Shown: one piece after another, positions 31,177 through 48,632 of the stretch | Position numbering within the stretch: position 1 is the first letter of the stretch | Layout: every line of letters begins with the position of its first letter | Assembly (NCBI GenBank): GCA_905160935.1 | Contig: CAJHZI010000882.1 | Span: forward strand, 1,349,501 to 1,413,500 | Length of the DNA: 64,000 nt | Direction of reading: 5' to 3' | Source: Enchytraeus crypticus | Taxonomy: Eukaryota; Annelida; Clitellata; Enchytraeida; Enchytraeidae | Position numbers and translations under genes: made by a program | The notes under the pieces: generated by a model | The model's input: only the letters and a program-made list of their open reading frames with translations | Told to the model about the DNA's origin: nothing | The model's database searches: none

Positions 31177-31584
31177 ATGGCAACAGCTCGAGCTGTGTAC
31201 AGCAACACGGCGGACACGGCCGAGGAGCTAAGCTTCAGTCAGGGTGAGATCCTGAGGGTGCTCGAGGTCGATGTGGGGGGACTGGCGGGGTGGTGGCTCT
31301 GCTCCCTCAGGGGTCGCACAGGCATCGCCCCTGGTAATCGCTTACAGCTCATCTCACCCGGGAGCTGCCCCAGCCCGTCGAGAAGATCATCGGAGAGGTG
31401 TGGTACTCCGGATATGAGCGGGGGAGGAAGAGGTACCCTGAGTGTATGTGGAGGTGGGAGACGCACCCCAGATATCAGTGATCAGCGTTCATGTAGGGGT
31501 GGATCGGCTGTCTCACCCCTCGCTCGACAGGACGGGTTAAGTCGCAGTGGCAGCTTTCGTCAGCAGGCAACAAATAGAACGGTT
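31177..31584 (+). CDS. p130CAS: CAS exon 1 (SH3 domain)
   Basis: It starts at the ATG of MATARAVYSN and encodes the whole SH3 domain plus a Ser/Gly/Arg-rich linker. The donor is uncertain. GTAATG after 31584 and GTTGTA after 31581 both leave phase 0, which matches the next acceptor. GTTAAG after 31535 leaves the wrong phase. The exon is much more GC-rich than its surroundings. Confidence 0.85.
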
Positions 31585-34500
31585 GTAATGATTGTCCAAT
31601 TCTCTTTTGTATTGATTATAATTTTGCTTTTTAAAATATAAATAAATTAATTTGATTTAAATTGCTTTTGTATTTAATTCAATGAATGCCTGTTCAATTC
31701 TCTAATTAATTGATTTAAGCTTATCATGAGTTTACTCTTGTTAGATTAATTAGTTGTTAATGCTTTAAATGATTAAATGAAACTAATTTCTAGTCAGTAA
31801 TTTCGAACTTCCCTAAAATTATACCGATATACATTAGCTTTTCCTCTGACAACTAATCTAACAGTAGAAATTCCGTTACAAGCTTCAGAGCTGCAAAGTA
31901 ATAGTTTAGCAGATACATTTCTTTTTCTTAGAAATTTTTATTACTAGCAGTCAGTTTATTCCTGACTTCCTCATTGACTCTGGGAAAGGTTTTATCAGGA
32001 AGAGTTTTTCATCTGATTGCTCTCATATACGATATTCGATGTATGTTACGGCAGTGCAACAAGTGTAACAAGTATGATATTTTAATGTGAGGTCGGCGAG
32101 GTCGAGTGCTGAGGTGTATGTATGTTAATACCAAGTCTATCATTTATGATGTTTATACTGTTATGTGTGTGTTAATAGCAAGTCTGTCATTTATGATGTT
32201 TATACTGTTATATGTGTGTTAATAACAAGTCTGTCATTTATGATGTTTATACTGTTATATGTGTGTTAATAACAAGTCTGTCATTTATGATGTTTATACT
32301 GTTATATGTGTGTTAATAACAAGTCTATCATTTATGATGTTTATACTGTTATATGTGTGTTAATAACAAGTCTGTCATTTATGATGTTTATACTGTTGTA
32401 TGTGTGTTAATAACAAGTCTATCATTTATGATGTTTACAGCGTTTAATGTATCTTAGCACCAAGTCTATCTTTTATGTTTATAATGTTTATACTACTATA
32501 CGCATGTTAATGCAGTGCGATCAGTCATCCACGTACGATACTCCTCAGCTGTTGTCGGCCCACCAGGACCTGCAGGACTACGACGTGCCCTCAGTGAGGT
32601 ACCAGGGCGAGGGCCAGCACCCCCCAACACGCCCCGGGGCCAGGCTGGACCACTCCGCCTGTAACTACGACTCCCCTGCCACACTGAGACACGAGTACGA
32701 CACCCTGAGAGATATCAGAGAAATGAGCAGAGCTCTCAATGAAATACAGTCCGCTGGGTTAATGGCGGATTCGTCGCAGAATTACGATTCACCTTTGACC
32801 CTGAAACGTGACGCGTGTAGCGAACAGAATTACGATTCTCCACAAACGTTACTTACAATTCAAGAACAGAATTACGATTCCCCCCTGACGTTGCTAGCTA
32901 ACAGTCAATTGACTTATCAGACTCCGCAGTCTCTGAGAAGCTGTCAAGTCTCGTCACGGTACAGTCTGCAGTCTTGCAGAGATCAGCGAGGTGGTTGTGG
33001 TTCACCGCGACAAGCTAGCAACGACGTGTACGACTCTCCGATGAATCTGATCAGAAATTCCCCCATAGAATCAATTAACGACGTGTACGATTCGCCCTTT
33101 AGGAATTCCCCGTGCCCGGTGATTAGAAGGGAAGACTCTCCCCACACCCTCACTCGAGCTGGCTCTAAGTCTCAGGGTCAGGAGAGGAGCTGCGAGGGTT
33201 CTGCCTCTCCCCTGAGAGTTACCGATGTGAGTAATCACGCCTTCACGAATCGCTCGTCTCATTTTCGTGACCATGGTTTGAATTATATAGAACACATATC
33301 AGGAGGTAATAACCAATGTGACAGTCCCAAAGAACATTGTGCGGGTATTGGACAACGGCAGCAGCTCTGTCACATGGGGGAGTATGATGTTCCAGGTAAT
33401 GTCAGCGCCGCCCGGTGTAGTGGAGGTGTGTTATCGATCCTGTCCAATAGGTCGAGTGTTCTCTCCTCTGTCGGGTCAAGGTCGTCAGCCTGCAGTGGAT
33501 CGAGTCCATCAGGGTCGGCGAGGTCGAGTGCTGAGGTGTATGAGCTGAATCCGCTGGAATCTTCAGCTTTGAGAGGCTGCAATGTGCAAGTTGGAAACAT
33601 CAGGTTTGTAAGCTTGATTTAGACGTCATACCGTTTCTATACCCACGTATACATGTAGGACGCAATCTTTGCCAGTTTAACAGATATAATTATTATAAAT
33701 ATAATGAGGTAGTTTTATCTATCTGTCTGTCTGAAGTAACTCAGATACAGCGCTGTCATCTGGCGAGTATATATTTAAAAGCAGCGTCATATTTATAATT
33801 TCTAAATGGTTTCACTAATTACAGCTCTCACATATGTCGAGTGTAAATTTTTGGCAAATATAAATTTAATCGAAGCATCATATTTAGAATTTCTAATTAA
33901 AACAACACTTTCACATATAAGAAATTTTTATAGATTGAGTTATTGAAGAAGTTTATGGTACATTGCTAGAACGTCTGTCTTAGGATTGAGATGTTAGAGT
34001 TAAAAGTGGCCATTTTTCCTAGATGTGTGCATTTTTGCATACTGGTACATCTAGTTTACAAATAATGTAGGAGGATTAACAATGTTTGCTATAAGAGCAT
34101 CGTAGCTGATATATTTCTATGGCCCTGATTAATTAGTCTGTAGTAAATTACTGTATATATTATAGTCTAAGCTAGTCTTGGATGCGATTTAAGGAGACGT
34201 TCGTTTCTAGTAAAATTTTTGTGTGTTTTATATTCCAGCTGCATTAAAAAAGTCTACATTAATTTACTATGTATTTTTGATTTATCTGCTTTTTATATCA
34301 TCAGCACACAAGGCCTACATACAGCTATCTTCATCAAATAGTCACATTTTGCTATATAATAGTTAAAATTAATAAACATTAATAATAAAAATATTAATAA
34401 AGTCTGTTACTTCATACAAGGATGATGTCAGGAACATCCCCCAACCCATGTCACTACAAATCAATTCCTCCAAACAATTTGAAAAAGAAACATATGCTGA

Positions 34501-36328
34501 AGAGTAAGAAAAGAGATTAATTACATAGATTAAATACATACAATTACATAGATAACTTAGATTAAATACACACAATTACATAGAATTCATAGATTCAATA
34601 CAGTTGCATAGATTAAATACATACAATTACATAGAATACGTGGACTAAATACAATCAATTGCATAGATTAAATATATATTGATACATTGAATACATAGAT
34701 TATATACGATTGCATAGATTAAATATATATTGATACATTGAATACATAGATTATATACAATTGCATAGATTAAATATAGACATTTACTTTTGTTAATTAA
34801 TTAAATACATACAATTACATAGCTTATATTCATTTGTCTGTACAGGTCTGGTGGTGGTGAAACAAGTCAGATTGGAAAACCTGGACGTGCGTATCAACAA
34901 CAACAACAACAGCTTATGCAACAGTCAAGCAATATCTACGACAACCGAGACTCGTATCTAGATGATTACTCTGTGCCACGCAGTGATTCGTCAGTAGACT
35001 CTGGTATTTCTGTCCAATCAGGAGCCAACGAACAACCTCATGATAATATATCAAATAACGTGAAGACAAATCAACAGGTTGCAGGTGAATATGACGTACC
35101 ATCACAACTGGTTTATCCTTCAGCATCTTCGTCATCTGCTACATCACCTGCTTCAGTCCCAGCAGCGAATTCTTTAGATTTTCATTCTTCTTCCGGTAAC
35201 TCTGGTTCATACAATGTTTCTGCAAACCATCGAAAACCACCTGCAGTAAAACCTAAACCTAAGTCAAAGATGCCAGAAAGGTTCGCATCACAAGGTAGAC
35301 CTTTACCAGCACCTCCTAGCTATACCTCTGTTGTGCCAGACGATAAGCAGAGCAGTAGTTCGAGAGTAACTCCAGGGCAAGATGAGAGAACAAGACTTGG
35401 GGGTAGCAGTGACAATGGTGGGTCTAAGGCAGATATTTCAGTGATCGTTTCTGACTCAGCTTCGGAATGGAATGATGACTGCGACTATGTGACGATAGCC
35501 AATGACGCAGAGCTGGAGGTAAAGAAGAAGGTAGAGGAGGCAAGGAGTGGAAACCACTTCAATGCACGTCTTGCCTCCGATGCTTTCAACTCTCGAGTCA
35601 ATCGTCCTATTGACGGAATCACAAGTGGGGCATATCGGCAACAGAACGAATCATCGAGGCTTCCAGGTGGCGCCACGTTGAAGAATAGTGAAATTGGAAA
35701 ATTCACGTTTCAAGTTCATCAAGCGGAAAAGCTTGCAACTTCCAACGGAAATTCTAAAGTTATGAAGAACAGTTGTAGTACCTCTGCAGGTGGTCTTAGT
35801 GACAAGTTTAAAGAGAGATTGGATGCTGTCAAGAAGGCTACTAATATGACAGGGGACACGCCGTCAGGCAGAGTATCTGCTAACATTGAACCTGTTGTGG
35901 AGTTCTACGCGAGTCAAGCCGACGTGATTTTTACTGAAGTACAAGCGGCTGCGGGCGAGTTTTTTAACTGTGAAGGTACTGGTAACACTGATGCAGGCTC
36001 GTTTGCGCGTAGGGGTCGTAATGTTATCTTAGCGGCTCACAAGCTCGTCTATGTCAGCGATGCCATGGCTCGTCTGGGAACACTCTCTTGTGAAGAACCT
36101 GGCAGCACTGCAGCGGAGGGAGAGGGTGTGGGAGAGATAGTCCAAGCTGCTAACACGTTGTGCGAGTCTCTGAAAGCAGCCGTGGTAGCGACGCGTAATG
36201 CGGCACTGTTATACCCTGATGCTACGTCTAGACAGCGTGCTGAGGACTGTATACTGAGTGCAGTGGCAGAGTGTGCGGAGCTGTGTGACGTTATACACGC
36301 CAATGCCACACATCTACTTGTAGGATAG
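31177..36328 (+). CDS. p130CAS: p130Cas/BCAR1-family scaffold protein (gene, 3 coding exons)
   Basis: This is an adaptor of the CAS family (BCAR1, NEDD9, EFS, CASS4 in vertebrates). It links focal adhesion kinase and Src to CRK and Rac signalling at integrin adhesions. Joining 31177-31584, 32516-33603 and 34846-36328 keeps the frame (phase 0, then phase 2) and gives about 992 residues against ~870 in human BCAR1. The SH3 domain is at ~3-62 (ALYD-like AVYSNTADTAEELSF, WWLCSLRGRTGIAPGNRL). The substrate domain has about 12 YxxP motifs, mostly YDSP. The Src-SH3-type RPLPAPP is at ~650. The EWNDDCDYVTI block at ~707-717 corresponds to EDYDYVHL, and RPIDG is at ~752. The FAT-like C-terminal domain is at ~849-992 (NVILAAHKLVYVSDAMARLG; LCESLKAAVVATRNAALLYP). 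I cannot see a clear Ser-rich four-helix region. The invertebrate gene is probably the single co-ortholog of all four vertebrate members. Confidence 0.95.
31585..32515 (+). other. CAS intron 1
   Basis: AT-rich. Its 3' third is a 47-bp minisatellite (32117-32445) whose last decayed unit runs into the acceptor TGTTAATGCAG at 32505-32515. Confidence 0.75.
32117..32445. repeat. 47-bp minisatellite ending at the CAS exon 2 acceptor
   Basis: About seven copies of a 47-base unit with TATGTGTGTTAATAACAAGT, CTGTCATTTATGATG and TTTATACT. The sequence that leads into exon 2 (TTTATACTACTATACGCATG, then TTAATGCAG) lines up with TTTATACTGTTATATGTGTG, then TTAATAACAAG of the unit. The array therefore appears to derive from the intron end that includes the splice acceptor. 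Confidence 0.9.
32516..33603 (+). CDS. p130CAS: CAS exon 2 (substrate domain)
   Basis: It follows the acceptor TTAATGCAG and begins CDQSSTYDTPQLL. The donor is CAG|GTTTGT after 33603, and its phase 2 matches exon 3. It carries ten YxxP motifs: YDTP, YDVP, YDSP six times, YQTP and YDVP. When phosphorylated by Src/FAK, such YDxP sites are docking sites for CRK SH2 domains. The end is Ser-rich (SILSNRSSVLSSVGS...). Two antisense open frames over it are shadows. Confidence 0.93.
33955..34066 (+). repeat. SINE family S4, copy
   Basis: TACATTGCTAGAACGTC, CTTAGGATTGAGA, TTTTTCCTAGA.GTGTGCATTTT and GGTACATCTAG are shared with the inverse complement of 49843-49985. The other copy has a B-box-like GGGTTCAAATCTAG, so the family is probably tRNA-derived. 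Here that block has decayed. Confidence 0.7.
34385..34515 (-). repeat. Dispersed repeat X, second copy
   Basis: CATACAAGGATGATGTCAGG, CATGTCACTACAAATC and GCTGAAGAG are shared with 14896-15035. It is preceded by an AATAATAAAAATATTAAT-type tract. Confidence 0.65.
34520..34825. repeat. AT-rich ~21-bp array before CAS exon 3
   Basis: Repeated GATTAAATACATACAATTAC and ATAG-type phrases with length changes, plus a ~60-base duplication (GATTAAATATATATTGATAC ... twice, near 34668 and 34721). The array ends about 20 bases before the splice acceptor. Confidence 0.85.
34846..36328 (+). CDS. p130CAS: CAS exon 3 (Src-binding region and FAT-like domain)
   Basis: The acceptor is CTGTACAG|G, completing the codon split at exon 2. 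It begins SGGGETSQIGKPGRAYQQQQQQL, with a short CAA/CAG polyglutamine. It contains YSVP and YDVP, then VKPKPKSKMP, RPLPAPP and DDCDYV. The DCDYV Cys codon at 35480-35482 replaces the first Tyr of the usual YDYV Src-SH2 site. Next comes an acidic/Lys helix (AELEVKKKVEEARSG) and the FAT-like domain. It ends HANATHLLVG and TAG. The coding end is part of a tandem repeat that continues into the 3' UTR. Confidence 0.95.
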
Positions 36329-36680
36329 CAGTGTTTGTGCATTGTAATATTATACATGCCAATGCCACACATCTACAGGTAGGCTAGCAGTGTTTTTGCA
36401 GAACTGCGTGACGTTATACACGCTAATGGCACACATCTAGTTGTAGGCTAGCAGTGTTTGTGTAGAACTGTGTGATGTTATACATGCCAATGGCACACAT
36501 CTACTGGTAGGATAGCAGTGTTTTTGGAGAATTGTTAACTATATGCTGATAGGATATTTGTGCTGTGATGCTATGCATGCCAATGCTACATATCTACTGA
36601 CTGGTGGGATAGCAGTGTTGCTTGCAGAACTCTGTAATACTATAGAGGCTAATGCTACATATCTACTGATAAGATATCTG
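36279..36680. repeat. ~60-bp tandem repeat spanning the CAS stop codon
   Basis: Around six diverged copies of GTGTGACGTTATACACGCCA ATGCCACACATCTACTTGTA GGATAGCAGTGTTTGTGC. The first copy encodes CDVIHANATHLLVG and the stop, and the rest lie in the 3' UTR. The later copies are the most decayed. Confidence 0.9.
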
Positions 36681-36946
36681 TTGTAGACTTTTTGATGAGA
36701 TTAACTGTATACGTATATTCATATTGTGTAATGCTGTACAATCAGAATTCATGTTTCAATGTTTGAATTTTGATGTACGACTACTATATATATTTACAGA
36801 AACACGTGACAGCTCCTTTGTTTATTAGTCAATGCCTAGTTAGTGGCGTTATAGAAAAGTTAGCTATTGTAGTTGAGAGTGTACCAAATTACTTAGCAAT
36901 AGAATTTCTACTGAGTGACTACTAACTGTTAAATGGAATTTCTAGA

Positions 36947-36952
36947 AATAAA
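36947..36952 (+). promoter_or_regulatory. Candidate polyadenylation signal of the CAS gene
   Basis: AATAAA about 620 bases after the stop codon, in the expected orientation. Such hexamers are common in AT-rich DNA, so this is only a candidate. Confidence 0.35.
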
Positions 36953-37345
36953 ATTACTGGCATTACATTTTTGCACGGTATATTGCTAAAATTACTTTCA
37001 TATTTAAAAAACTTATTATTATTATTTACTGTTTTTTATATTTTACTTAATCACCTATGCACTTCTTATCCAATGATGAATACAACATCTAGAAAATATG
37101 ACTTAATTTTTGGTAGCTAAAGTTCTTATATTGTATGAAGTGTGTTTTAGCTACATAATTCTTACTGTATCGGTTTTATATGAAATAGTGATCATATTTT
37201 AAGTAGCTTCGGTAGCTGGATTTTCATATACTGTAGAAAGCAACAGCAATTTATTGTCTCTTTTAAATGCTATTGTCTGATAGTGAACTGCTTATTTATG
37301 GAAGGCTGTGCTAGCGTAGAAGTGTGCTAGTAGCATATGCAAGGT

Positions 37346-37385
37346 CTTAAATTATATACGTGCTTAGTGCACGTATATAATTTAA
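37346..37385. repeat. Short perfect inverted repeat
   Basis: TTAAATTATATACGTGC and its inverse GCACGTATATAATTTAA, with a 5-6 base loop (TTAGT). It looks like a local palindrome and I see no microRNA-like mismatches. Confidence 0.8.
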
Positions 37386-38460
37386 AATGGTAATACATTA
37401 TTATCCCGTTGCCTCCTTGTAATTTTACTCTATAACTTTTATGTTTAATGCTCACACATGGCAAGCAATCCTACTGGCAATGTATAACCGAATATTATAC
37501 TAATTAATTATTAATGCTGTGCACTATTAGCGCAGTGCTTAAGTATAGAAAGCAGTCCTAGTTGCACTTTATTGCAGTACATTAATGTTGCGCATTAACT
37601 AAATTTTAATTTTCTCTTGCAGAAAATGCCAACAGCTTTGTACTTCTACACATAAAACCTGTGCACTGTTGCTAAATTTCTCGGTTGAGCGTCATGCCAG
37701 ATTTGTTCTTGTATATTATCTGATTTACGTGTATATTTTTTATTGATTTGCTGCATTGCCTAGTAGTCTACACTGTTGCATATTTGCCGGTTATTTTTTA
37801 TTTAACCGTTGTATATATAGCATATTCTCGTGCGCTATTGTTGCCATGAATGGTTGTATCATTTACATAGAGTCTAATTATAAATGTCGAATCTGTGCAG
37901 AGAAACATGCGCATTTTATATATAACACTATGCATTTTTATTACATTATTCGAGGTCTTTACTCTGTTCTTATTACACATGTACATGTATATTTTGTAAT
38001 CTAGTTATGAGCACGGAGAAATGCTATGGCACCCAATCATTCACTCGATAGGCCCCACAATTGAGTTTTAAGGGACAGGAGCGCTCAAATCGTAAACATT
38101 ATGATCTAACGCGATGATTGTCAGCTGTCTGAGCTCTTCAGTAGCTTTCTGAGCACAAGAAAAGGGACGTTGAACTTTTTATGAACTTTTCTCTATATTT
38201 GGGCCTACATTGCCTATCAATATTTGTAATAATAAATAGGATTTTTCTTGTGAAGTCACTACTTTTCACTGTTCCACAAGTGGTTTTAAGCGACCCTTAG
38301 TGGTTTGCTTGGGGAAGGCATGAAACGATATAACTTTGTTTCGTGCATAATTGTACAGAATATCTATTTAAAACACAGAAAGTTACCAGTCAAAATAATG
38401 GTCATCACGGTATTCAGTATATACATTGGTAATCGCTCTGATTTCCGCGATTGTCTTATA

Positions 38461-39397
38461 GAGGGTGAGTAAAAAAAAGGATAACACCTGCAAAAAGTTT
38501 GAATATCTCAGGCTATTGTTAACATTTTCAAATCAAACTTTTACCAATTACTAAGGGACTAATTGTGGATGGGGTGGCCTATTTTCATACATTTTAATCT
38601 ATGGATTGGCCAGTTATACAAGTTTCAGCAGAACAACCCCCGTTTTTTACCTAAAAATGGCCTTTGCTACAACGGTCAGGGCAAATTGCACTTCATTGGC
38701 GAGAAGGAAAAGGTGAACGCTCAGTATGACGTCAATACTTTACTTCCCTAGCTGTTTGATGATTGCAATGCTCTTCTACCAAATGGTTTCATCTTTCAGC
38801 AGGATGGTGCTCCGGCTCATGCTTCTCGTCATGCACAGGAATGGGTCAGCGAGAGAAATCCGCATTTCATCATGAAGAGTGAATGGCCTCCAAACTCTCC
38901 CGATCAAAATACTCTGGATTACCATGTCTGGGGAACCATGCTGCATTTCTATCAGAAACACCAGGCTAAGCCTAAAAACAAAGCAGAACTGCTACCTACC
39001 ATCAATTTGGGAGAGACTGCCCCAAGCTGGAATCAACAAGGCTTTCCAAGAGTTTCGAAAGCTGCTGAAGTCCTGAAAAGCAGCTGGAGGAAAGCATATC
39101 GAATTTGCAGTAATACTAGCAGATACAACAGGTTCTTTCTGAATCACCACAACGATCCTTTTCAGGGCCAAAAAATAAAGTTAATATAATTTGCATTTAC
39201 AGTACATACAGAAAATGGGGGGTTGCTCTGCTGAAACTTTCATAACTGGTCAACTTATGTATTAAAACGGATAAAAATTGGTCGCCTCTTAAAAAGTAGT
39301 CCTTTAGTAATTGGTATAAGTTTTATTTGAAAATATTAACAATAGCCTTAGATATTCAAACTTTTTGCAGGTGTTATCACTTTTTTTACTCACCCTG
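38461..39397 (+). mobile_element. mariner (DD37D-type) deletion derivative with very long inverted ends
   Basis: It is flanked by TA on both sides (38459-38460 and 39398-39399). The ends GAGGGTGAGTAAAAAAAAGG and (inverted) CAGGGTGAGTAAAAAAAGTG open inverted repeats that stay alignable for about 190 bases (38461-38650 against 39208-39397). Between them a transposase remnant reads FDDCNALLPNGFIFQQDGAPAHASRHAQEW, then SEWPPNSPDQNTLDYHVWGTML. By hand count, 37 residues separate the Asp of DGAPAH from the Asp of LDYH, the DD37D spacing of maT-like mariners. A TAG lies before LFDDCN, and the N-terminal half with the DNA-binding domain and first catalytic Asp is gone. The element cannot be autonomous. 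Confidence 0.88.
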
Positions 39398-39404
39398 TAT
39401 ATTC

Positions 39405-40660
39405 TAGATCTAGAAAGTGTTAGCTTTTGCGAACTCTATAAAACTATAATATATATTAACAAATAATAGTTTTCCAAAAAATAAAACTTGTGGGAGTCAA
39501 TTTAAAATTTTTCTCGTGCTGCATCAGATTTTATCTATTGAATACGCTCAACATAACAATCTTAATCTGAGATTTTCTCTCGAAGTGCCTATTGTCTATT
39601 GGCAGGTCTATTTTGATCAATGGTAGCTCAACATATGTTTAGAATTTTTGAATAAGTTATCAAATCGTCCGGCATCCAAAGTTGTTGTCTTCCCCTAATC
39701 TTCTTCCTTCAATTTCGTCTTTCAGTAAACAGTCCCCACTCAGAACTTGACCCATCCATTTTGAGAATTATCGGAGATTAACCACTGTTGATAACGAAAT
39801 CTCATACAAATAAATTACTTGGATGAGATTTAAATTTCCTAGGTTATGCTCACTGTTTCATATTCTGTATGTTTGCTAGGGTCTGATCATGTTATAACTT
39901 GGATACTTTGGCGTACAGCTTAGAGGTTATACTGTATTTATTTATGTTTGTATAGAACTTTCTACAGGAACGATATTGTTCATGTTAGATTATTTGTGCC
40001 GCTATTCATGTTAGGTTACAAGTTAGCCATATTTGTTCCTTATATATGTTATACCGTATAGTATCAATATATCTACGCCAGTTTGCAAAAGGTCTGCCTA
40101 AAAATCAATATTTAAATATTTATTTAACTCATTTTATTATTTAAAAAATTGAATATAATACTTGTAAACTTTTTCATAGCATTTCATAAAATACAAATGA
40201 AAAAATTGAGTATTTTACCTTTTCTATTAATTACAATTATATCAGATGTCAAAAGCTTAACATAGACTAAACTAGTCCAAAGTGATGGTTTAAATAAAAC
40301 TATATACATATAAGTACAAATCCTGGTTAAACATGAAATATGTAAATTATGCAGATTTTGTTATAATTTCAGTATCGCACCTTATTCAGCACGGTCGATC
40401 CCTATTGTACGTACACTTTTTGAGTGCAGTGCTGTGATTTACTCTAGCAAGCACTGTAATCACAATATTAATGCTTTTTATAAAAATAACAGTTTATGTA
40501 TTAAAAACTCTGTAGTAGTATTTAATTTAAATACTGCAAACTGTAACGTCAAAAAAACATAAACTTGTCTAGCTGCATATTGTAAAAATTTCAGAAACTG
40601 TTAACGAGTTTAACCTGGATTGCTATGCTTTGATTGAAATGATAATTTATTTAATGTACA
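39405..40660. other. Gene-free stretch
   Basis: AT-rich intergenic DNA with nothing that I can support. Confidence 0.45.
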
Positions 40661-40671
40661 CAAGTCATTTC

Positions 40672-41121
40672 GTAGATCAATGCGATAGTCTTCCCAATTG
40701 CCACCTATGGATGCGAAAGTTGGACGCTAAAAAAGGCGGATAGAAGAATCGACGCTTTCGAGCTTTGGTGTTGGAGACGCGTGTTACGAGTCCCGTGGAC
40801 GGCTATAGTTAACAATAGAGATGTGCTAGATCGCATAAAACCAAGTATTTCTCTTGAAGGGAAGATCACAAAGCAAAGGTTGTCATACTTTGGACATGTC
40901 ATGCGAGCGAGTTCAATTGAGAAATCAATTATGCTAGGACAGGTCAGTGGAAAAAGGAGGAAAGGTCGTCAAAGAACGCGTTGGCTTGATACTGTAGAAT
41001 TTGCCCTCAACACCAGCATAGCGGGTTTGAGGGAGGCGGTAAGAAATCGTGATTCATGGAGACAGATAGTTCATAAAGTGTCCAAGAGTCGGCTTCGACT
41101 GAATGGATAACTCATCATCAT
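40672..41121 (+). mobile_element. 5'-truncated RTE retrotransposon (BovB-like), copy 1
   Basis: It is flanked by perfect 11-base duplications CAAGTCATTTC (40661-40671 and 41122-41132). It carries an uninterrupted frame [20 protein letters not shown] ... [20 protein letters not shown] ... [18 protein letters not shown] ... [13 protein letters not shown] ... and ends SRLRLNG and stop, followed by ATAACTCATCATCAT. This matches the C-terminus of the ruminant/squamate BovB polyprotein ([57 protein letters not shown]). The ATC-repeat tail fits RTE ends. The intact duplication and open frame suggest a fairly young insertion. Confidence 0.92.
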
Positions 41122-41132
41122 CAAGTCATTTC

Positions 41133-41792
41133 ACAACAAATAACTTTTTGTATTCAAATAATTAATTTCAACATCTTCAACTAATTATTTTATTCTGCTT
41201 AGCACTACCATACTATATTGACTAAATATTATAGAGAATTGATTGTTCTTTCAGTATTATTCAGTTTAATTTTGAGTAGTATCAGCGCAATTGTTCGCTA
41301 ACTAAAAAGTCGTTATCATGCAGCAATGGTATTTCAAAAGTTCACAGTTAAATTTGGTATTATTTCCAGATACTGAAGCAAGGTATTACACTCTTGTGTC
41401 TCATAATAAAACTATCAATTGTTCTGCAGCACTAGACTTACTAATAAACCTTTACTTGTACAATGCGAGCGTCATCCCTACCTGCGATAATTACTTGGAT
41501 ATTGAACTTCAAACTTACAACCTCAAATCAAAATCAAATAAAATAAAAAATAAAATTTAAAAATAAAAAAATTAAAATAAAATAAAAAATAAAATTTCTA
41601 AATCAAAGTTTGGAAAATGATACTCAACTGTTAAAGACAACTTTTTGCAATCATTATGCTATGGCACATACCAAAATTCAATATAATAGCCATAGTACAG
41701 AACTACACCAATCTTTGTTAAGAGTTCGAAGATTGAGTTACTGTCCAGTTCTATTAACTATCCACAACGTCACACCTAGTAGGACCCAACGT
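41133..41792. other. PSMB2 downstream region / 3' UTR
   Basis: It probably includes the PSMB2 3' UTR (minus strand). It contains an AAAAT-type low-complexity run (41525-41602). Open frames on the plus strand (41318, 41610) are not recognisable. The nearest minus-strand AATAAA that I noticed is near 41190. Confidence 0.45.
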
Positions 41793-41969
41793 CTATTGTT
41801 GAAGGATCATTTCTACATTTCTCGCTAGGTCAGGACCCGGGCCTGGCTGCTTCACCTCCACCGCTCCAGGCAGAACCTCAGCGTTGATGTTTGGCAGTTC
41901 TCTTACACCATTCTTGTCGATCACCTTCACACGGAACGTTCCCATGTTGAGCACCAGACGCGTGCCTAT
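41793..41969 (-). CDS. PSMB2: PSMB2 exon 6
   Basis: Acceptor TATACAG|ATAGGC. It encodes [35 protein letters not shown] and a Pro-rich tail ending NVEMILQQ and TAG. The tail after the family's usual end is extra. Confidence 0.93.
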   Translation of the reverse strand: MGTRLVLNMGTFRVKVIDKNGVRELPNINAEVLPGAVEVKQPGPGPDLARNVEMILQQ

Positions 41970-44900
41970 CTGTATACAATATCATCAGAAAGCAAGCCTT
42001 ACACTGTGTTTCGGTTAGAAATTTTACACTGTTTCGTTTAGAAATTTGGGTCGTTCCTGCTAGCAGTGGGTTAATGAGCTACTGGCTGAGCACGATATGG
42101 TAAATGAGTTGATAGGTCCTATGCTTGTCGTTGGTTGAGCTTGAATGTGAATTAAAGCAGCAATGATTTGTTTATTTATTCTTAGGCATGGGCGTCGCCA
42201 CTTTGTCAGCGTTACTAATCACATCGTTTGGCCAGTAACCACAAAACCGAACACGATCTCGTATCCTGGCTATGTGATGGCACTGAATAAATAATACACT
42301 GCTTTTAATGCCAAGTAAAATTATTACCAATTCAGAAGTTAAATTATTAACAGACATTTTAATAGATTTTTCTTAAGATCTGCTAATAAGCTGTAAATAT
42401 CACAACATTGGACCATATCATAAAATTATTTAAAAAATATATCAATATAATATCACACTAATCAAGAGTATCTGGAGAAAATAATGATTATCTGTTTACC
42501 TCAACACAAGAGAACTGTCTAAACATTTTATAAACACATAGAATTAATTAATTCTCAATCAGACGACTCGAAACTCTATAATGCTATAGAAATTAATTGA
42601 TGCAGAGAAGAATCAAGAAGAAGAACAATGTTACGTTAGCTGCAAGCAACAACAGGGGAATCACCAGGCGCGACGGTGCACTTCTTGAGAGACCACAAAA
42701 TATGATGAAGGGCGGAAGAAAAAAAAAAAAAAAATAAACTGTATAGAAACATTTTAAGATAGCATTGTTCCGTTGGATATACATTATAAATTTATCCATT
42801 TTCAAGTATGAATAGAAATATATTAACATTGTACAATAACAACAGATGTTTATAAATATCAATATATTTGAGTAGCTATTCATAGAGCAGACCTCATTTA
42901 CACATTTCTGAACCAGTTCTATGGCCTCCTTCTCTGTCATGTCTAAAACACAATACCATCACATGTATATACATAATATATATACATAAAATATATATAT
43001 ACATGCATATACTTGCATATAGTTTTAAATCCAAGTTTGGGAAAACGCTGGACCGCCTTGACAGCAACAAAGGCTGCATAAGACTCAGCTACATTAATCA
43101 ACTATAAATGTTTCTACGCCAAACTTCGAAAAGTAGCGCTTTCTGCTTGAAAATACAAGACTTCATAATATACAAACTGCATGTTAACAACAACTCAATA
43201 CAAATTTGAAGAATTGTGATAGTGTAGATAATTTGCAATGTCTGTCTAGCACACTGAGAGAGAAGAATTGTGGTAGTGTACCTGGTCTATAGTATCTGTC
43301 TAGCACACTGAGAGAAGAAGAATTGTGGTAGTGTACCTGGTCTATAGTATCTGTCTAGCACACTGAGAGAAGAAGAATTGTAGAGTGTACCTAGTTTGTA
43401 GTATCTGTCTAGCACATTGAGAGAAGAAGAATTGTAGAGTGTACCTAGTTTGTAGTATCTGTCTAGCACATTGAGAGAAGAAGAATTGTAGAGTGTACCT
43501 AGTTTGTAGTATCTGTCTAGCACATTGAGAGAAGAAGAATTGTAGAGTGTACCTAGTTTGTAGTATCTGTCTAGCACATTGAGAGAAGAAGAATTGTAGA
43601 GTGTACCTAGTTTGTAGTATCTGTCTAGCACATTGAGAGAAGAAGAATTGTAGAGTGTACCTAGTTTGTAGTATCTGTCTAGCACATTGAGAGAAGAAGA
43701 ATTGTAGAGTGTACCTAGTTTGTAGTATCTGTCTAGCACATTGAGAGAAGAAGAATTGTAGAGTGTACCTAGTTTGTAGTATCTGTCTAGCACATTGAGA
43801 GAAGAAGAATTGTAGAGTGTACCTAGTTTGTAGTATCTGTCTAGCACATTGAGAGAAGAAGAATTGTAGAGTGTACCTAGTTTGTAGTATCTGTCTAGCA
43901 CATTGAGAGAAGAAGAATTGTAGAGTGTACCTAGTTTGTAGTATCTGTCTAGCACACTGAGAGAAGAAGAATTGTAGAGTGTACCTGGCCTGTAGTATCT
44001 GTCTAGCACACTGAGAGAAGAATTGTGGAGTGTACCTGGTTTGTAGTATCTGTCTAGCACACTGAGAGAGAAGAACGATCCGTAGCCATGCACAGCGAAT
44101 GGGACACTGACAGACGAGGCGAGGTAATCCATGTAGTAGAGCCCACCTTCTCCTTTCTCATCACAGCCTCCTATCAGTAGATTCACCATGTACGCTGACT
44201 GCATCAATCAATCAATAACTATATTTATCAACCAATAAATAAATTATTAATCAATAATCCCTTCTTACAACAGCCTCCTATCAGTAAATTTCTCATAAAC
44301 AAGGGCTGTATCAATATATTCGTATTGTTTTACTTCAATAACTGAATGCTTAATTCCCTTTTCATGTACTAACAACTAGCAAGAGTATATGTATGAATAT
44401 GATGATAAGTATATGTAAGTGTATGAAGAGCTTGAATGTACGTGATTAAAAACTGTGACACAATTTAACAGACACTATACATAGCACTATTTCCTTTTAT
44501 AACTTAAAGTCAACTCTGTTTAGTTTTATATTTGGTCAATATTGATATAATTCACATTGATTTTTTTAATCTTAAGTAGTTCATCTGCATTAACTTTATT
44601 TTGATTATTCTTTTGATATTTTTATAGTTACTTTCCTTAAAATATAAACTTCACTATATAAAACATTATAAAAAACAAAATTATATTATAAACATCTACT
44701 TAAGCAGAATCTTTTATAGGCAGAAAAACAAGATTCTATTAGTTAGAAGACATAACAGGCGTTGACTTTGATGACAAGATTTGATGAGCTCAATGGAGTC
44801 TTCATTTACCACTATACCTGATAAACCTACTTAGATTAGCCTTACTAATATATTTATATTCAATGAAATATCATTTATAAACCACAATTCCATGACGATG

Positions 44901-47900
44901 ACAATTTTATTTTGTGAGATTGTCAACTGGAAGAAGTTTCATCATTCTGCATGTCTAGGTTTAACTAAATAACAATACTACTCAGGAAAAAAGATTACAA
45001 ATTTTACATGCAGATTACTTACACTTGATCGCAGTGATTCAGCCAGGTTACGTCTGGTGAAGTTAACAGCAGCCTTCAATGAGAGATCATAGCCTAGACA
45101 AATAGTTAACAGCAGCCTTCAATGAGAGATCATAGCCTAGACAAATAGTTAACAGCAGCCTTCAACGTGAGATCATGGCCTAGACAAATAGTTAACAGCA
45201 GCCTTCAATGTGAGATCATGGCCTAGACAAATAGTTAACAGTGGCTTTTAATGAGAGGTCATAGCCTAGACAAAGCCTAGACAAATAGTTATAAACATAT
45301 CTTCTTCCAGTGCACTGAATCGGCAAGTCCACGGCATATAACTCTTCCAACCAATTCTATCCTCAGCCTTCCATTTCATCTCTATATATGAATTTGTTAT
45401 CAGATCATCCATCATCCGATGTCTTGGTCTTCCTCTAACTCTTTTTGTTGCATTCTTCCTACTGTTACATCCTTTAGCAAACCATCCCTCCTTGTATATA
45501 TCATGTCCTATTCAGATTTTCTTTCTATATCTTATCACATTTTTAACTGTCTATCTGTACCAACTCTTTCAAGAACTTCTTCATTTGTGATTTTGTCAGT
45601 CCAACTAATCTTTTCCATCCTTCTCCATAACCACATTTCCAATGCCTCTAGTTTCCTGATATTTTCTTTCTCTAATGTCCACGTTTCACATCATATAATA
45701 AAAACATATATTATAAATTATTTAATTACTATTTAAAACTTATAATCCTTTACCTAAAATACTCTTTTATTTTTAAAATAAAATTTTAAAAATTTTAATT
45801 TTAAAATAAAAATTTTTTATTTTTAAAATAGAATAATGGCATAGATAAATTTCAATAAATGCAGGGAGTCATCTAAAAATAATAAAATATTAAACTATAT
45901 TTCAAAAAAATTACAAATATACAGTAAATTCTAAAACTATACTATACTTCTAACGACAAGCTACTGGGTTAGGCCTGTAGCTTGTCGGTAAGCTGTCCAA
46001 CTGCATATCAGTAGCTACAAGATTCAAATCCAGCGCTCTCCCTGCCACTGACATGCCATCCAGACAGGAAACTGATGTTACACTTGGCTTTACCATTTTA
46101 TCCTTTAGAAGTACACAACGCAATTGTAATATACAACGTACATAACGAATTACAAAACACTGAATCTAAAACAAAAATGTTGTAACCAAGTACTGCAACA
46201 GAAATGATACTTTCTGAAGGACATGCAGTAATTTTGAAGCACTAACTATTATAATCAAACTATACTATCTCAGAAAAACCAGCATTACAGTTAGATTATA
46301 ATCCAGATACTTAATTACTTCTTGATTTAATTAAGTTTCATATTAGAGTCAATATAAATAGATACCATTTCTCATTCGATAGAGCTGAATGTTTTTAGCA
46401 ACATATTCAGCAAACTGCACAGCATCCCCCGAATCACCTGATACGGCCATAACAAGTTTATTGCTGAGCACAAAAGTTTTGTCGACATCTGCCACAACAA
46501 CAAAAACATAGCAGTGATACCAGTTGCACAAATAATAGAAGCCTCACAATATATTCGAAGAATAAAATAAAAAGGAAATATCCAGAGAGAAAATCAGAAC
46601 AACAAAATCAACCTTACCTTCTGAATAGATCAGAAGCAAGCTGACAAACCTCAACATACTATTTTGGAATTCCATTTAACAACTGAACTCGGGATCTGAT
46701 TAAAATTTACCTCGTCACTTTGAGGAAATGTTTGCTTAAAACTCCCCTACTTGAGCCTATATCAGAAAGGTGTTCCATTTTTAGAAGTACTTTAACCATT
46801 GAGTGTGGTAAAAGAAAACACTGTTGCCTTGGGAGGGAATTTAGTGTACATTGAGTATCTAAATAACCATTCTCTAATTCTAATTCCCAATCCACTGCCT
46901 CTAAAATATTGTTAATACATTATGTATTAACATTAACACATTATGTAACTTTTGATAAGTCTATGATAGATTTTATTGATCTATTTTGTAGCCGTCTTTA
47001 TTTAATATGTACGCAGAAGCAGTATTGCGGAAGGTAGATATGATTGAATCAACTGTAGGCGTGAGAACTGGTGGGAGAAAAGTCAACTACCTGAGGTATG
47101 CGGATGACACCACTCTCCTCGCGGAGAGCAGGGAAGGTCTGGAACAATTCATATTAAAGGTTAAAGAAGAAAGCGAAAAAGCTGGTTTGTTCCTCAACAT
47201 TAAGAAAACCAAGATCATGACAGCTGATATTGCTGAAACCAAAATCAGAATTGACAATGAAGATATTGAGACAGTCAACGATTTTGTCTTTCTTGGTTCT
47301 AAAATTATCCGTGACGGAGCATCAAGACCAGAGATGAAACCGCGGATAGCAATGGGGCGCCCTGCGATGACTAGCATGATGAAAATTTGGAAGAGTAAAG
47401 ACATAAGCCTCGTTACCAAATGCAGGATAGTCAATGCGATAGTCTTTCCAATTGCCACCTATGGATGCGAAAGTTGGACGCTAAAAAAGGCGGATAGAAG
47501 GAGAATCGACGCTTTCGAGCTTTGGTGTTGAAGAATGTGTTATGAGTCCCGTCCACGGCTAAAGTTAACAATAGAAATATGCTAGATCGCATAAAACCAA
47601 GTATTTCTCATGAAGGAAAGATCACAAAGCAAAGGTTGTCATACTTTGGACATGTCATGCCAGCAAGTTCAATTGAGAAATCAATTATGCTAGGACATGT
47701 CAGTGGAAAAAGGAGGAAAGGTCGTCAAAGAACGCGTTGGCTTGATATTGTAGAATTTGACCTCAACACCAGCATAGCGGATTTGAAGGAGGCAGTAAGA
47801 AATCGTGATACATGGAGACAGATAGTTCATAAAGTGACCAAGAGTCGGCGTCGACTGAATGGATAACTCATCATCATGATAGATTTCCATTTAACTTAAC

Positions 47901-48632
47901 TTAACTTAACACTTAACTTAATATAATTATACTGGTTAAGGAAGTCACAAGGACCTGTAACACCAGTTTTTTGATTTAATTTCATATTTGGTATCATCAA
48001 CAAACTTACTCATTTTGGATATCATGCTGCTGTCTAAGTCATTAATGTAAACCAAAAATAAAATTGGACCCAACACTGAACCCTGTGGAACCCCACTGGT
48101 GACATTGCGCCAAGCCGAGTCATGATTTGAAATGCAAACTTTTTGTCTCCTGGAGGTTAACCAACTTCTAATACAATTCAGCTTCTAATACTTGAAGCTC
48201 ATGGAGTTACTGGCTCAGTAACTCCATGAGCTTCAAGTTTACAAAACAATCTCTCGTAAGGCACTTTATCAAAACGCCTTTGCAAAATCCAAATAGACAA
48301 TGTCTACTGGATTACCGTTATCAACATGCAGTGTGACGGATTCCATAAAGCTCAAAATGTTTGTTAGACAAGATCTATTTCTGGTAAATCCATGTTGACA
48401 ATTTCTTATTAATCCATAACTATTTAAATGTTTAACTAAACTATCCTTAATAATGCTCTCGAACACCTTAAGTAATTAATTGAAAAAAACACCTTAAGTT
48501 TAAGTTATTTTAAGCTAGAAAAATATTAAATCATTTCCTACCTCTTTTCATAGCCACAACGCTCCTGGCGCACATATTATCGCAGGCCATGACGACGAAA
48601 TCCCGACCCCTAATACCGATTAGGCACTCCAT
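41793..48632 (-). CDS. PSMB2: Proteasome subunit beta type-2 (beta-4), gene with 6 coding exons
   Basis: A structural, non-catalytic beta subunit of the 20S proteasome core. Joining the minus-strand exons 48632-48542, 46488-46366, 45093-45023, 44198-44036, 42942-42893 and 41969-41793 keeps frame at each GT..AG junction (phases 1, 1, 0, 1, 0) and gives 224 residues against 201 in human. Signatures in order are [95 protein letters not shown] and [23 protein letters not shown]; and [19 protein letters not shown]. As in the family, there is no N-terminal catalytic Thr and no propeptide. The C-terminus is about 23 residues longer than the human protein. Introns hold LINEs, a SINE and two minisatellites built from exon borders. 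Confidence 0.97.
41970..42892 (-). other. PSMB2 intron 5
   Basis: AT-rich, without a recognised repeat except a poly-A run at 42718-42736. An open frame (42593-42940, minus) partly overlaps exon 5 and is read-through. Confidence 0.8.
42893..42942 (-). CDS. PSMB2: PSMB2 exon 5 (50 bp)
   Basis: A small exon between GTTTTAG|AC and AATGAG|GTCTGC. It encodes (D)[16 protein letters not shown], the helix that corresponds to SRERAVELLRKCLEE in human. Confidence 0.93.
43233..44073. repeat. 54-bp minisatellite containing the end of PSMB2 exon 4 and its 5' splice site
   Basis: About 15 copies of a 54-base unit. Read on the minus strand, each has GTGCTAGACAGATACTACAA, then A(C/T)(C/T)AG|GTACAC. This is the last ~26 bases of exon 4 (VLDRYYK), its donor and the first intron bases. 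The period is 18 codons with no stop, so the array stays open in the exon frame (minus strand, 44207-43287). The central copies are nearly identical, while the copies at both ends differ (CTCAGTG instead of CTCAATG). Confidence 0.95.
44036..44198 (-). CDS. PSMB2: PSMB2 exon 4
   Basis: Acceptor GATGCAG|TCAGCG. It encodes [39 protein letters not shown] and [16 protein letters not shown] place the donor at CCAG|GTACAC (44035-44034), the first of ~15 equivalent sites, because this length matches the family without insertion. Using a later copy would add multiples of 18 residues in frame. Confidence 0.92.
44210..45020 (-). other. PSMB2 intron 3
   Basis: AT-rich. A CAATCAATCAATAA-type run lies at its end near exon 4. 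I see no mobile element. Confidence 0.7.
45023..45093 (-). CDS. PSMB2: PSMB2 exon 3 (71 bp)
   Basis: Acceptor TTTGTCTAG|GC and donor AAGT|GTAAGT. It encodes [23 protein letters not shown]. The acceptor and first ~33 coding bases are repeated upstream in the intron. The true exon is the copy that continues into the [10 protein letters not shown] codons. Confidence 0.94.
45061..45290. repeat. 43-bp tandem repeat containing the start of PSMB2 exon 3 and its 3' splice site
   Basis: Five copies of AGTTAACAGCAGCCTTCAAT GAGAGATCATAGCCTAGACA AAT, the last one decayed and extended. Each copy read on the minus strand includes TTTGTCTAG|GCTATGATCTC. Four intronic decoy acceptors, each with ~33 bases of exon-like sequence, therefore precede the real one. 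A period of 43 is not a multiple of three, so using a decoy together with the next copies would shift the frame. Confidence 0.93.
45296..45692 (-). mobile_element. LINE-A fragment (C-terminal ORF and 3' end)
   Basis: It lies in PSMB2 intron 2. The minus-strand translation includes [49 protein letters not shown], then [30 protein letters not shown] and [12 protein letters not shown], with a TGA in place of the Trp codon near 45529. This is the C-terminal region of a widespread arthropod/invertebrate non-LTR retrotransposon type (..ALEMW.WRRM.KISWT..TNEEVL..V...). It is more diverged than the 50735 copy. The exact clade is unresolved. Confidence 0.82.
45966..46100 (+). repeat. SINE S1, diverged copy
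   Basis: It lies in PSMB2 intron 2. CTTGTCGGTAAGCTGTCCAA, CATATCAGTAGC, AGATTCAAATCCAG, GCCACTGACATGCCATC, GGAAACTGATGTTACACTTG and GCTTTACC follow the S1 order. Confidence 0.75.
46366..46488 (-). CDS. PSMB2: PSMB2 exon 2
   Basis: Acceptor TTGTGGCAG|AT and donor AATG|GTATCT. It encodes (D)[39 protein letters not shown] and N(G). It matches [40 protein letters not shown] of human along its length. Confidence 0.96.
46974..47875 (+). mobile_element. 5'-truncated RTE retrotransposon (BovB-like), copy 2
   Basis: It is flanked by perfect 11-base duplications ATGATAGATTT (46963-46973 and 47876-47886). The frame begins [20 protein letters not shown] and contains the reverse-transcriptase catalytic box [62 protein letters not shown] and LWC. 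After LWC a TGA (TGG>TGA) and a 1-base change of frame break it, and the last part (47579-47863, [20 protein letters not shown] to SRRRLNG) resumes in another frame. The tail is ATAACTCATCATC. Over the shared ~450 bases it is highly similar to copy 1 at 40672-41121. The residue order is strikingly close to vertebrate BovB. Confidence 0.93.
47925..48480 (-). mobile_element. CR1/Rex1-like LINE reverse-transcriptase fragment
   Basis: The minus-strand frames read [52 protein letters not shown] and then, after a disruption, [39 protein letters not shown] and [23 protein letters not shown]. This is the central reverse-transcriptase domain of CR1-like LINEs, with FADD changed to FVDD. The two halves are interrupted near 48183-48275 by a palindrome and a frame change. 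It is an old fragment with no 3' end recognised. Confidence 0.88.
48192..48238. repeat. Palindrome inside the LINE fragment
   Basis: ACTTGAAGCTCATGGAGTTACTG and its inverse CAGTAACTCCATGAGCTTCAAGT flank a 2-4 base centre. Arms of 22-23 bases are perfect. One arm fits the LINE sequence (CKLEAHGVT). The other appears to be an inverted duplicate. Confidence 0.85.
48542..48632 (-). CDS. PSMB2: PSMB2 exon 1
   Basis: It starts at the ATG at 48632-48630 and encodes [20 protein letters not shown] and [10 protein letters not shown]. The donor is AAAGAG|GTAGGA. The N-terminus aligns without offset to [20 protein letters not shown] of human, which fixes the start. Confidence 0.96.

Follow-up and report, generated by a model that had tools for sequence, protein, structure and literature searches.

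Why do tandem repeats sit on the edges of exons? The question is raised by a stretch of 64,000 nucleotides from the annelid Enchytraeus crypticus (GenBank assembly GCA_905160935.1, contig CAJHZI010000882.1, positions 1,349,501 to 1,413,500; the whole stretch, with an average GC content of about 34.7%, is called the window here). Two genes in it, one for a CAS-family scaffold protein and one for the proteasome subunit PSMB2, carry minisatellite arrays that contain splice junctions or a stop codon. An earlier note on this DNA had taken these arrays for a sign that repeats favour exon borders; across a larger set of genes from the same genome its observation is partly confirmed and its interpretation partly supported. 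Arrays do crowd towards exons, above all at the 3′ ends of introns. The explanation that we favour, with confidence evenly balanced for and against, is that these are mirage-type minisatellites formed mainly at intron 3′ ends by transcription-linked local duplication together with selective tolerance. By a mirage-type minisatellite we mean a local tandem duplication whose unit includes a splice junction (or stop codon).

The sequence searched is a genome assembly of 524,188,772 bases in 802 contigs. Among the best 120 of 7998 matches to its CCT5 exons, the top-scoring named ones are from annelids (Helobdella, 73% identity; Capitella, 72%), and a metagenome protein reaches 85%. Proteasome and Cpn60/CCT exons were located across it by family search, and genes were modelled with our own spliced protein-to-DNA alignment, with human proteins and a single CCT5 from Capitella as references. 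The 24 modelled loci (8 CCT, HSPD1 and 15 proteasome, including PSMB2 of the window), with the CAS gene added by hand, together contain 183 introns, with 366 junctions. The PSMB7 model reaches 146 of 234 residues; all others account for about 87% or more of the reference. Doubtful terminal exons of 8-10 bp (CCT7, one PSMB5, PSMB4) were retained in the counts, the start of CAS exon 3 was counted as 34847 (the true position is 34846), and five Cpn60 matches at three further places were left out of the models, as were the matches to kinases. We consider a tandem array to have a unit of at least 9 bp, and a junction to be spanned if the array has at least 8 bp on either side of it. Expected values come from dropping the arrays at random within each gene, 2000 times.

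Are the arrays spread evenly along genes? In the 25 gene models they hold approximately 14% of intron bases versus 2.7% of exon bases, and within introns they lean strongly to one end. Upstream of acceptors, arrays occupy 21% of the positions 1-10 bases away, 31% of those 41-60 away and 29% of those 101-150 away; at the same distances downstream of donors the coverage is 4%, 14% and 9%, and in the mid-intron trough it is 5-6%. Among introns of at least 300 bp, arrays cover 38% of the last 100 bases in the 44 plus-strand introns and 27% in the 132 minus-strand introns, while the first 100 bases (12% and 10%) hold no more than the interior. When the two ends of the same intron are compared, the acceptor end is richer in 57 and the donor end in 16 of these 176 introns, with 103 ties (P=1.5e-6), and the means per gene name favour the acceptor in 20 of 24 cases (the two PSMB5 loci share one name). 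An array ends within 60 bases upstream of 28 acceptors, compared with 7.2 expected (reached in 0 of 2000 placements), or with 11.0 when no array may fall in an exon. The junctions that lie inside arrays are 28 of 366 (22 acceptors and 6 donors, out of 183 each), two of the 28 being in the window; the six donors are depleted about threefold relative to the 19.2 expected, and none of the 2000 placements gave a value as low. The proposal that exon borders carry more repeats than matched intron positions thus stands for the acceptor end (21-31% versus 5-6% in the trough and 12-14% in the interior) and fails for the donor end, where coverage shows no excess. The broader idea that arrays favour exon edges needs the same qualification, since not all edges are alike: the first 100 bases past donors have a coverage of 10-12%, and donor-spanning arrays are depleted. 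A further set consists of two AAA genes of the 16 AAA places found, with 18 introns, 17 of them of at least 300 bp. Their borders are less certain because both models matched VCP best but scored low; coverage there is 15.7% at the acceptor end, 4.2% at the donor end and 10.2% mid-intron, which is the same direction, only weaker.

The pattern can also be seen without a repeat finder. We took words of 24 bases and counted at least 19 matches as a copy, with exon heads looked for in the next intron and exon tails in the previous intron as controls. The opening 24 bases of the exon recur in the upstream intron at 28 of 181 acceptors, versus 0 of 158 in the control; the closing 24 bases recur downstream at 4 of 181 donors, versus 0 of 158. 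Words that straddle the junction have a copy at 42 acceptors and 7 donors, out of 183 each. The outcome is similar with three other settings of word length and cut-off, and the exon-head control never exceeds 1 of 158. With a cut-off of 18 matches and a range of 1,500 bases, junction copies lie upstream of 45 of 183 acceptors. There are 140 such copies and 121 of them have the AG intact, although the copies were selected by similarity around the AG, which favours its conservation. In these copies the AG positions are conserved like their neighbours, so there is no sign of unused acceptors mutating away; in the donor copies (n=25) both GT positions are conserved, at 96% each. Acceptors that have copies (45) and those that lack them (138) differ nominally in the length of the exon (132 versus 110, P=0.026) and of the intron (880 versus 708, P=0.046) and in intron GC (0.337 versus 0.327, P=0.022), and not significantly in T content (P=0.67), exon GC (P=0.098) or relative intron position (P=0.84), all P values being uncorrected for the seven tests made.

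The arrays at intron 3′ ends also differ in strand composition. On the sense strand, acceptor array units have a mean GC skew of +0.37, and the remainder of those introns one of +0.08 (57 arrays, P=4e-7). No significant G skew is seen in the 25 donor arrays (-0.06) or the 34 mid-intron arrays (+0.11). The array-free flanks are at +0.16 next to acceptors (118) and +0.02 next to donors (154). Counted by locus, the acceptor units have a positive skew in 19 of 22 (P=0.0008), and after removal of GATT and GT runs the mean is still +0.26 (52 units). R-loop-prone DNA is known to have more G than C on its non-template strand. As a separate observation, acceptor-side arrays show a 5-8-fold enrichment of the words GATTG/TTGAT and TGTGT relative to intron sequence free of arrays. 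They may be branch-site-like or GU-rich splicing signals; GATTG/TTGAT fits a branch-site consensus.

Several results weigh against an origin tied to intron 3′ ends. The 22 spanned acceptors are at the random level (19.7 expected, P=0.32) and not in excess; therefore the junction itself need not be the target, and the zone upstream of it is. Donors with an array starting within 60 bases downstream are in excess as well (19 versus 7.2 expected, or versus 11.0 with exons barred to arrays, P=0.0085). More than 100 bases from both ends, the interior of the introns of at least 300 bp has a coverage of 14% on the plus strand and 12% on the minus strand, well above the 5% trough, and 24-base words from mid-intron have a nearby copy in 25 of 366 cases, more often than the exon ends at donors. 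The 18 introns of the AAA set contain no spanned junction. Pyrimidine content, in the comparison of 45 with 138 acceptors, does not clearly separate the two groups (P=0.065, uncorrected). Finally, the G skew may come from selection on splicing signals and not from R-loops.

What do the arrays of the window look like against this background? The features, found with Tandem Repeats Finder (TRF) where so marked, are the following.

31177..36328, plus strand: CAS-family scaffold gene, exons 31177-31581, 32516-33603 and 34846-36328 (junction strings; boundaries by eye)
32117..32488, plus strand: array of a 47-bp unit, 8 copies, in CAS intron 1 (TRF)
34514..34787, plus strand: degenerate arrays with units of 23/32/51 bp in CAS intron 2, which stop about 60 bp short of the acceptor of exon 3 (TRF)
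36272..36535, plus strand: array of a 64-bp unit, 4.2 copies (TRF)
41883..48632, minus strand: PSMB2 proteasome subunit gene (spliced alignment to human PSMB2; proteasome hidden Markov model matches)
48542-48632, 46366-46488, 45023-45093, 44036-44198, 42893-42942 and 41883-41969, minus strand: PSMB2 exons, the 3′ end of the final exon being outside the model
45061..45274, minus strand: array of a 43-bp unit, 5 copies (TRF, junction coordinates, copies laid out)
44203..44257, minus strand: short 19/24-bp array (24 bp x 2.2), which stops 5 bp before it would reach the acceptor of PSMB2 exon 4 (44198) and is absent from the earlier note (TRF)
43208..44075, minus strand: array of a 54-bp unit, 16 copies (TRF, junction coordinates, copies laid out)

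The CAS gene encodes an N-terminal SH3 domain (Pfam: SH3_9, 1.7e-9) and a C-terminal CAS_C domain (2.3e-19). Four borders had been placed inside arrays in the window, and three of them are there. The acceptor of PSMB2 exon 3 (exon start 45093) sits in the final copy, in gene direction, of the 43-bp array; the copies read ...TTTGTCTAG and then, across the junction, GCTATGATCTCTCATTGAAGGC, or a near variant, that is, the acceptor AG and the first exon bases, and the final copy continues into the true exon 3. The donor of PSMB2 exon 4 (exon end 44036) sits in the first copy of the 54-bp array, and the CAS coding end with the stop codon (36326-36328) in the first copy of the 64-bp array. The fourth, the CAS exon 2 acceptor (32516), is not included in its array: the 47-bp array ends at 32488, 28 bp short of it, with a degenerate tail that by eye comes nearer. 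A fifth array had been described as stopping about 20 bases short of the acceptor of CAS exon 3. Inspection by eye does show a partial copy reaching to about 20 bp, while TRF ends the array (34558-34787) about 60 bp away.

It had further been argued that minisatellites placed at random would rarely lie on borders. This does not hold: 3 of 17 borders in the window are inside arrays (P=0.32), or 2 of 14 if only splice junctions are considered (P=0.50), and random placement in the 183-intron sample predicts about 20 acceptors and about 19 donors. The border count of the window is not beyond chance because arrays hold 11.8% of positions 31177-48632 (with an 8-bp margin). We therefore rejected any significance drawn from the window alone.

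Copies were laid out for 8 of the 28 spanning arrays and for the 54-bp array. The gene models place the working border in a terminal copy and would make the others intronic, and the protein models stay intact. In the 54-bp array, the only one examined for homogenisation, the interior copies are near-identical and the edge copies have diverged. The unit lengths of the spanning arrays show no frame preference (modulo 3, 7/11/9 in 27 arrays). An exon-coding function was considered and rejected: a 306-codon open frame covers most of the 54-bp array, yet only 7 of the 27 junction-array units are multiples of three.

The exon copies are local in origin. Among 63 exon-copy matches, 62 are direct and not inverted, and 52 lie in one shared array with their source. 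Dispersed templated copying was rejected as the main mechanism, as just 11 of the 63 matches are outside a shared array. One copy in the window has a different appearance: 30 bp of CAS exon 2 (33513-33542) recur exactly at 32091-32120 on the plus strand, on the upstream margin of the intron 1 array with the 47-bp unit, as if inserted there from a template 1.4 kb away. How old are the arrays? Two PSMB5 paralogues, L022 (C306) and L023 (C696), encode proteins that are 92% identical, and their modelled exons 1-5 match. A 49-bp acceptor array at exon 5 is present in only one of them, and arrays have therefore been gained or lost after gene duplication. The presence of acceptor arrays varies from gene to gene, from none of 11 introns in CCT6 (L011+L012) to five of six in PSMA5 (L027), a modest overdispersion (P=0.013).

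The favoured explanation, transcription-linked duplication with tolerance, would work as follows. At intron 3′ ends of genes expressed in the germline, which these housekeeping genes probably are, the non-template strand is G/T-rich, and transcription with co-transcriptional splicing might keep the DNA open, as R-loops form or the polymerase slows. In such a zone, breakage or slippage during replication could give a first tandem duplication of roughly 40-120 bp that extends into the exon head, and unequal exchange or slippage would then enlarge and homogenise the array. One copy at the end of the array would remain the working border, and the remaining copies would become intron or untranslated region. 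Selection would purge copies that break the exon or the donor. Acceptor arrays would be tolerated because the exon-proximal copy would hold the authentic acceptor joined to the full exon, and splicing presumably stays correct.

Could a process without any preference for exon edges give the same picture? If tandem duplication were uniform and purifying selection removed the exonic and donor-spanning arrays, those in introns and at acceptors would survive. The near-random number of spanned acceptors (22 and 19.7), the loss of donors (6 versus 19.2) and the low share of array bases in exons (2.7% versus 14% in introns) all agree with this. Selection alone can explain the donor depletion; it can explain neither the slope inside introns, from about 30% near acceptors to 5-6% in the trough, nor the G skew, and it leaves the 28 array ends near acceptors (11.0 expected with arrays barred from exons) unaccounted for. 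We consider such a uniform process rather unlikely. Selection for splicing signals is a live rival of another kind, in which acceptor arrays multiply GU-rich factor sites, branch sites or polypyrimidine tracts and thereby strengthen the acceptor or hide cryptic ones. It draws on the enrichment of GATTG/TTGAT and TGTGT and on the AG kept in 121 of 140 copies. Against it, the arrays are patchy (CCT6 and PSMA5, with 0 of 11 and 5 of 6 introns, and one of the two PSMB5 paralogues), and among the eight arrays laid out two have a common TTGATTGA run and the others look different; on balance this explanation is unlikely.

Two further possibilities fare worse. The window may simply show two genes of a minisatellite-rich genome, with nothing to explain, and its own count (3 of 17 borders, P=0.32) would be content with that; the strong edge placement and polarity in 183 introns refute coincidence as a full account, and we find it very improbable. 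The least probable explanation is a mobile element that prefers intron 3′ ends and carries the arrays in. There is partial similarity of units between genes (460 BLAST rows with E<=1e-4, reciprocal and low-complexity matches included), but the eight spanning arrays that were laid out consist of local exon and intron sequence, and of the 63 exon copies all but one are direct, with 52 inside a single array.

The earlier note knew of no described system of this kind, and here it was mistaken. In amphioxus, minisatellite-like tandem duplications of exon-intron boundaries, named ‘mirages,’ are described for Adh3, the globins BflGb6 and BflGb9, troponin C and PGBD5 in the available parts of two reports (PMC3087553, PMC3902484). 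According to the authors AG/GT is kept in many copies and regular splicing is undisturbed, with support from reverse transcription PCR (same sources). The anatomy of the annelid arrays matches this: as far as those parts go, the boundary is duplicated in tandem, either exon end can be affected, many copies have AG/GT, and there is concerted evolution within the cluster that excludes the edge. The differences are that the present host is an annelid, that about 12-25% of sampled acceptors are involved depending on the test, and that there is a polarity of acceptor over donor and a G skew on the sense strand. In the same portions of text the amphioxus cases are described gene by gene with reverse transcription PCR, while the annelid arrays are known from genomic sequence alone. 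Among the literature matches listed, which mostly exclude subscription papers, there is no report of annelid mirages or of acceptor polarity, and this is weak evidence of absence.

Other systems are comparable in part. Intron gain by tandem duplication of AGGT-containing segments (Rogers 1989; Zhuo et al. 2007; Gao and Lynch 2009; as cited in the available part of PMC3087553) is similar in that tandem copies with splice signals could become new introns, and different in that the annelid copies sit in existing introns. Earthworm metallothionein genes have minisatellites in the first intron and unexplained duplications of the fourth exon that are absent from transcripts (PMC12783039, available part); these may be related to the junction arrays described here. 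Unlike in the latter, the monomers average 178-181 bp, and that part of the report does not state whether splice junctions are spanned. CeRep25B of C. elegans is likewise an intronic minisatellite linked to splicing and lies near alternative splicing regions; in contrast to the annelid arrays it is a common 24-base family, mainly clustered on chromosome III, and exon edges are not mentioned in the portion available (PMC4039745).

These arrays bear on two questions: where minisatellites come from, and by what route introns lengthen or appear. With about one in eight sampled acceptors inside a tandem array and a clear 3′ polarity, they offer many natural examples for direct tests. Gene predictions in such genomes may gain doubtful exons built from array copies; the point is argued for PGBD5 of lancelets in the available part of PMC3902484. 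More tentatively, and with less than even confidence, we suggest a splice-polar germline process that duplicates intron 3′ ends together with exon heads and affects perhaps one intron in eight to one in four in this annelid. It would act where the non-template DNA is G-skewed, by way of R-loops or a slowing of the polymerase. Cryptic acceptors, longer introns and, in time, new introns would keep arising from it, and the same process would have arisen independently in lancelets.

Arrays are also found at the ends of coding regions. The stop codon lies inside an array in 2 of the 25 gene models (CCT7 and CAS); for this count the CAS stop had been set 19 bases downstream of its actual place, and several of the model ends are uncertain. 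The CCT7 case (L015+L016, position 1158-1337) resembles the stop array of CAS. Retroelement pieces are present near PSMB2, at 46992-47531 in its intron 1 (a fragment of the reverse transcriptase domain RVT_1) and at 40676-41110 downstream of the gene. The open reading frame at 40676-41110, for which Pfam gives only a weak sub-cut-off match to Mis12, resembles by eye the downstream part of the same retroelement.

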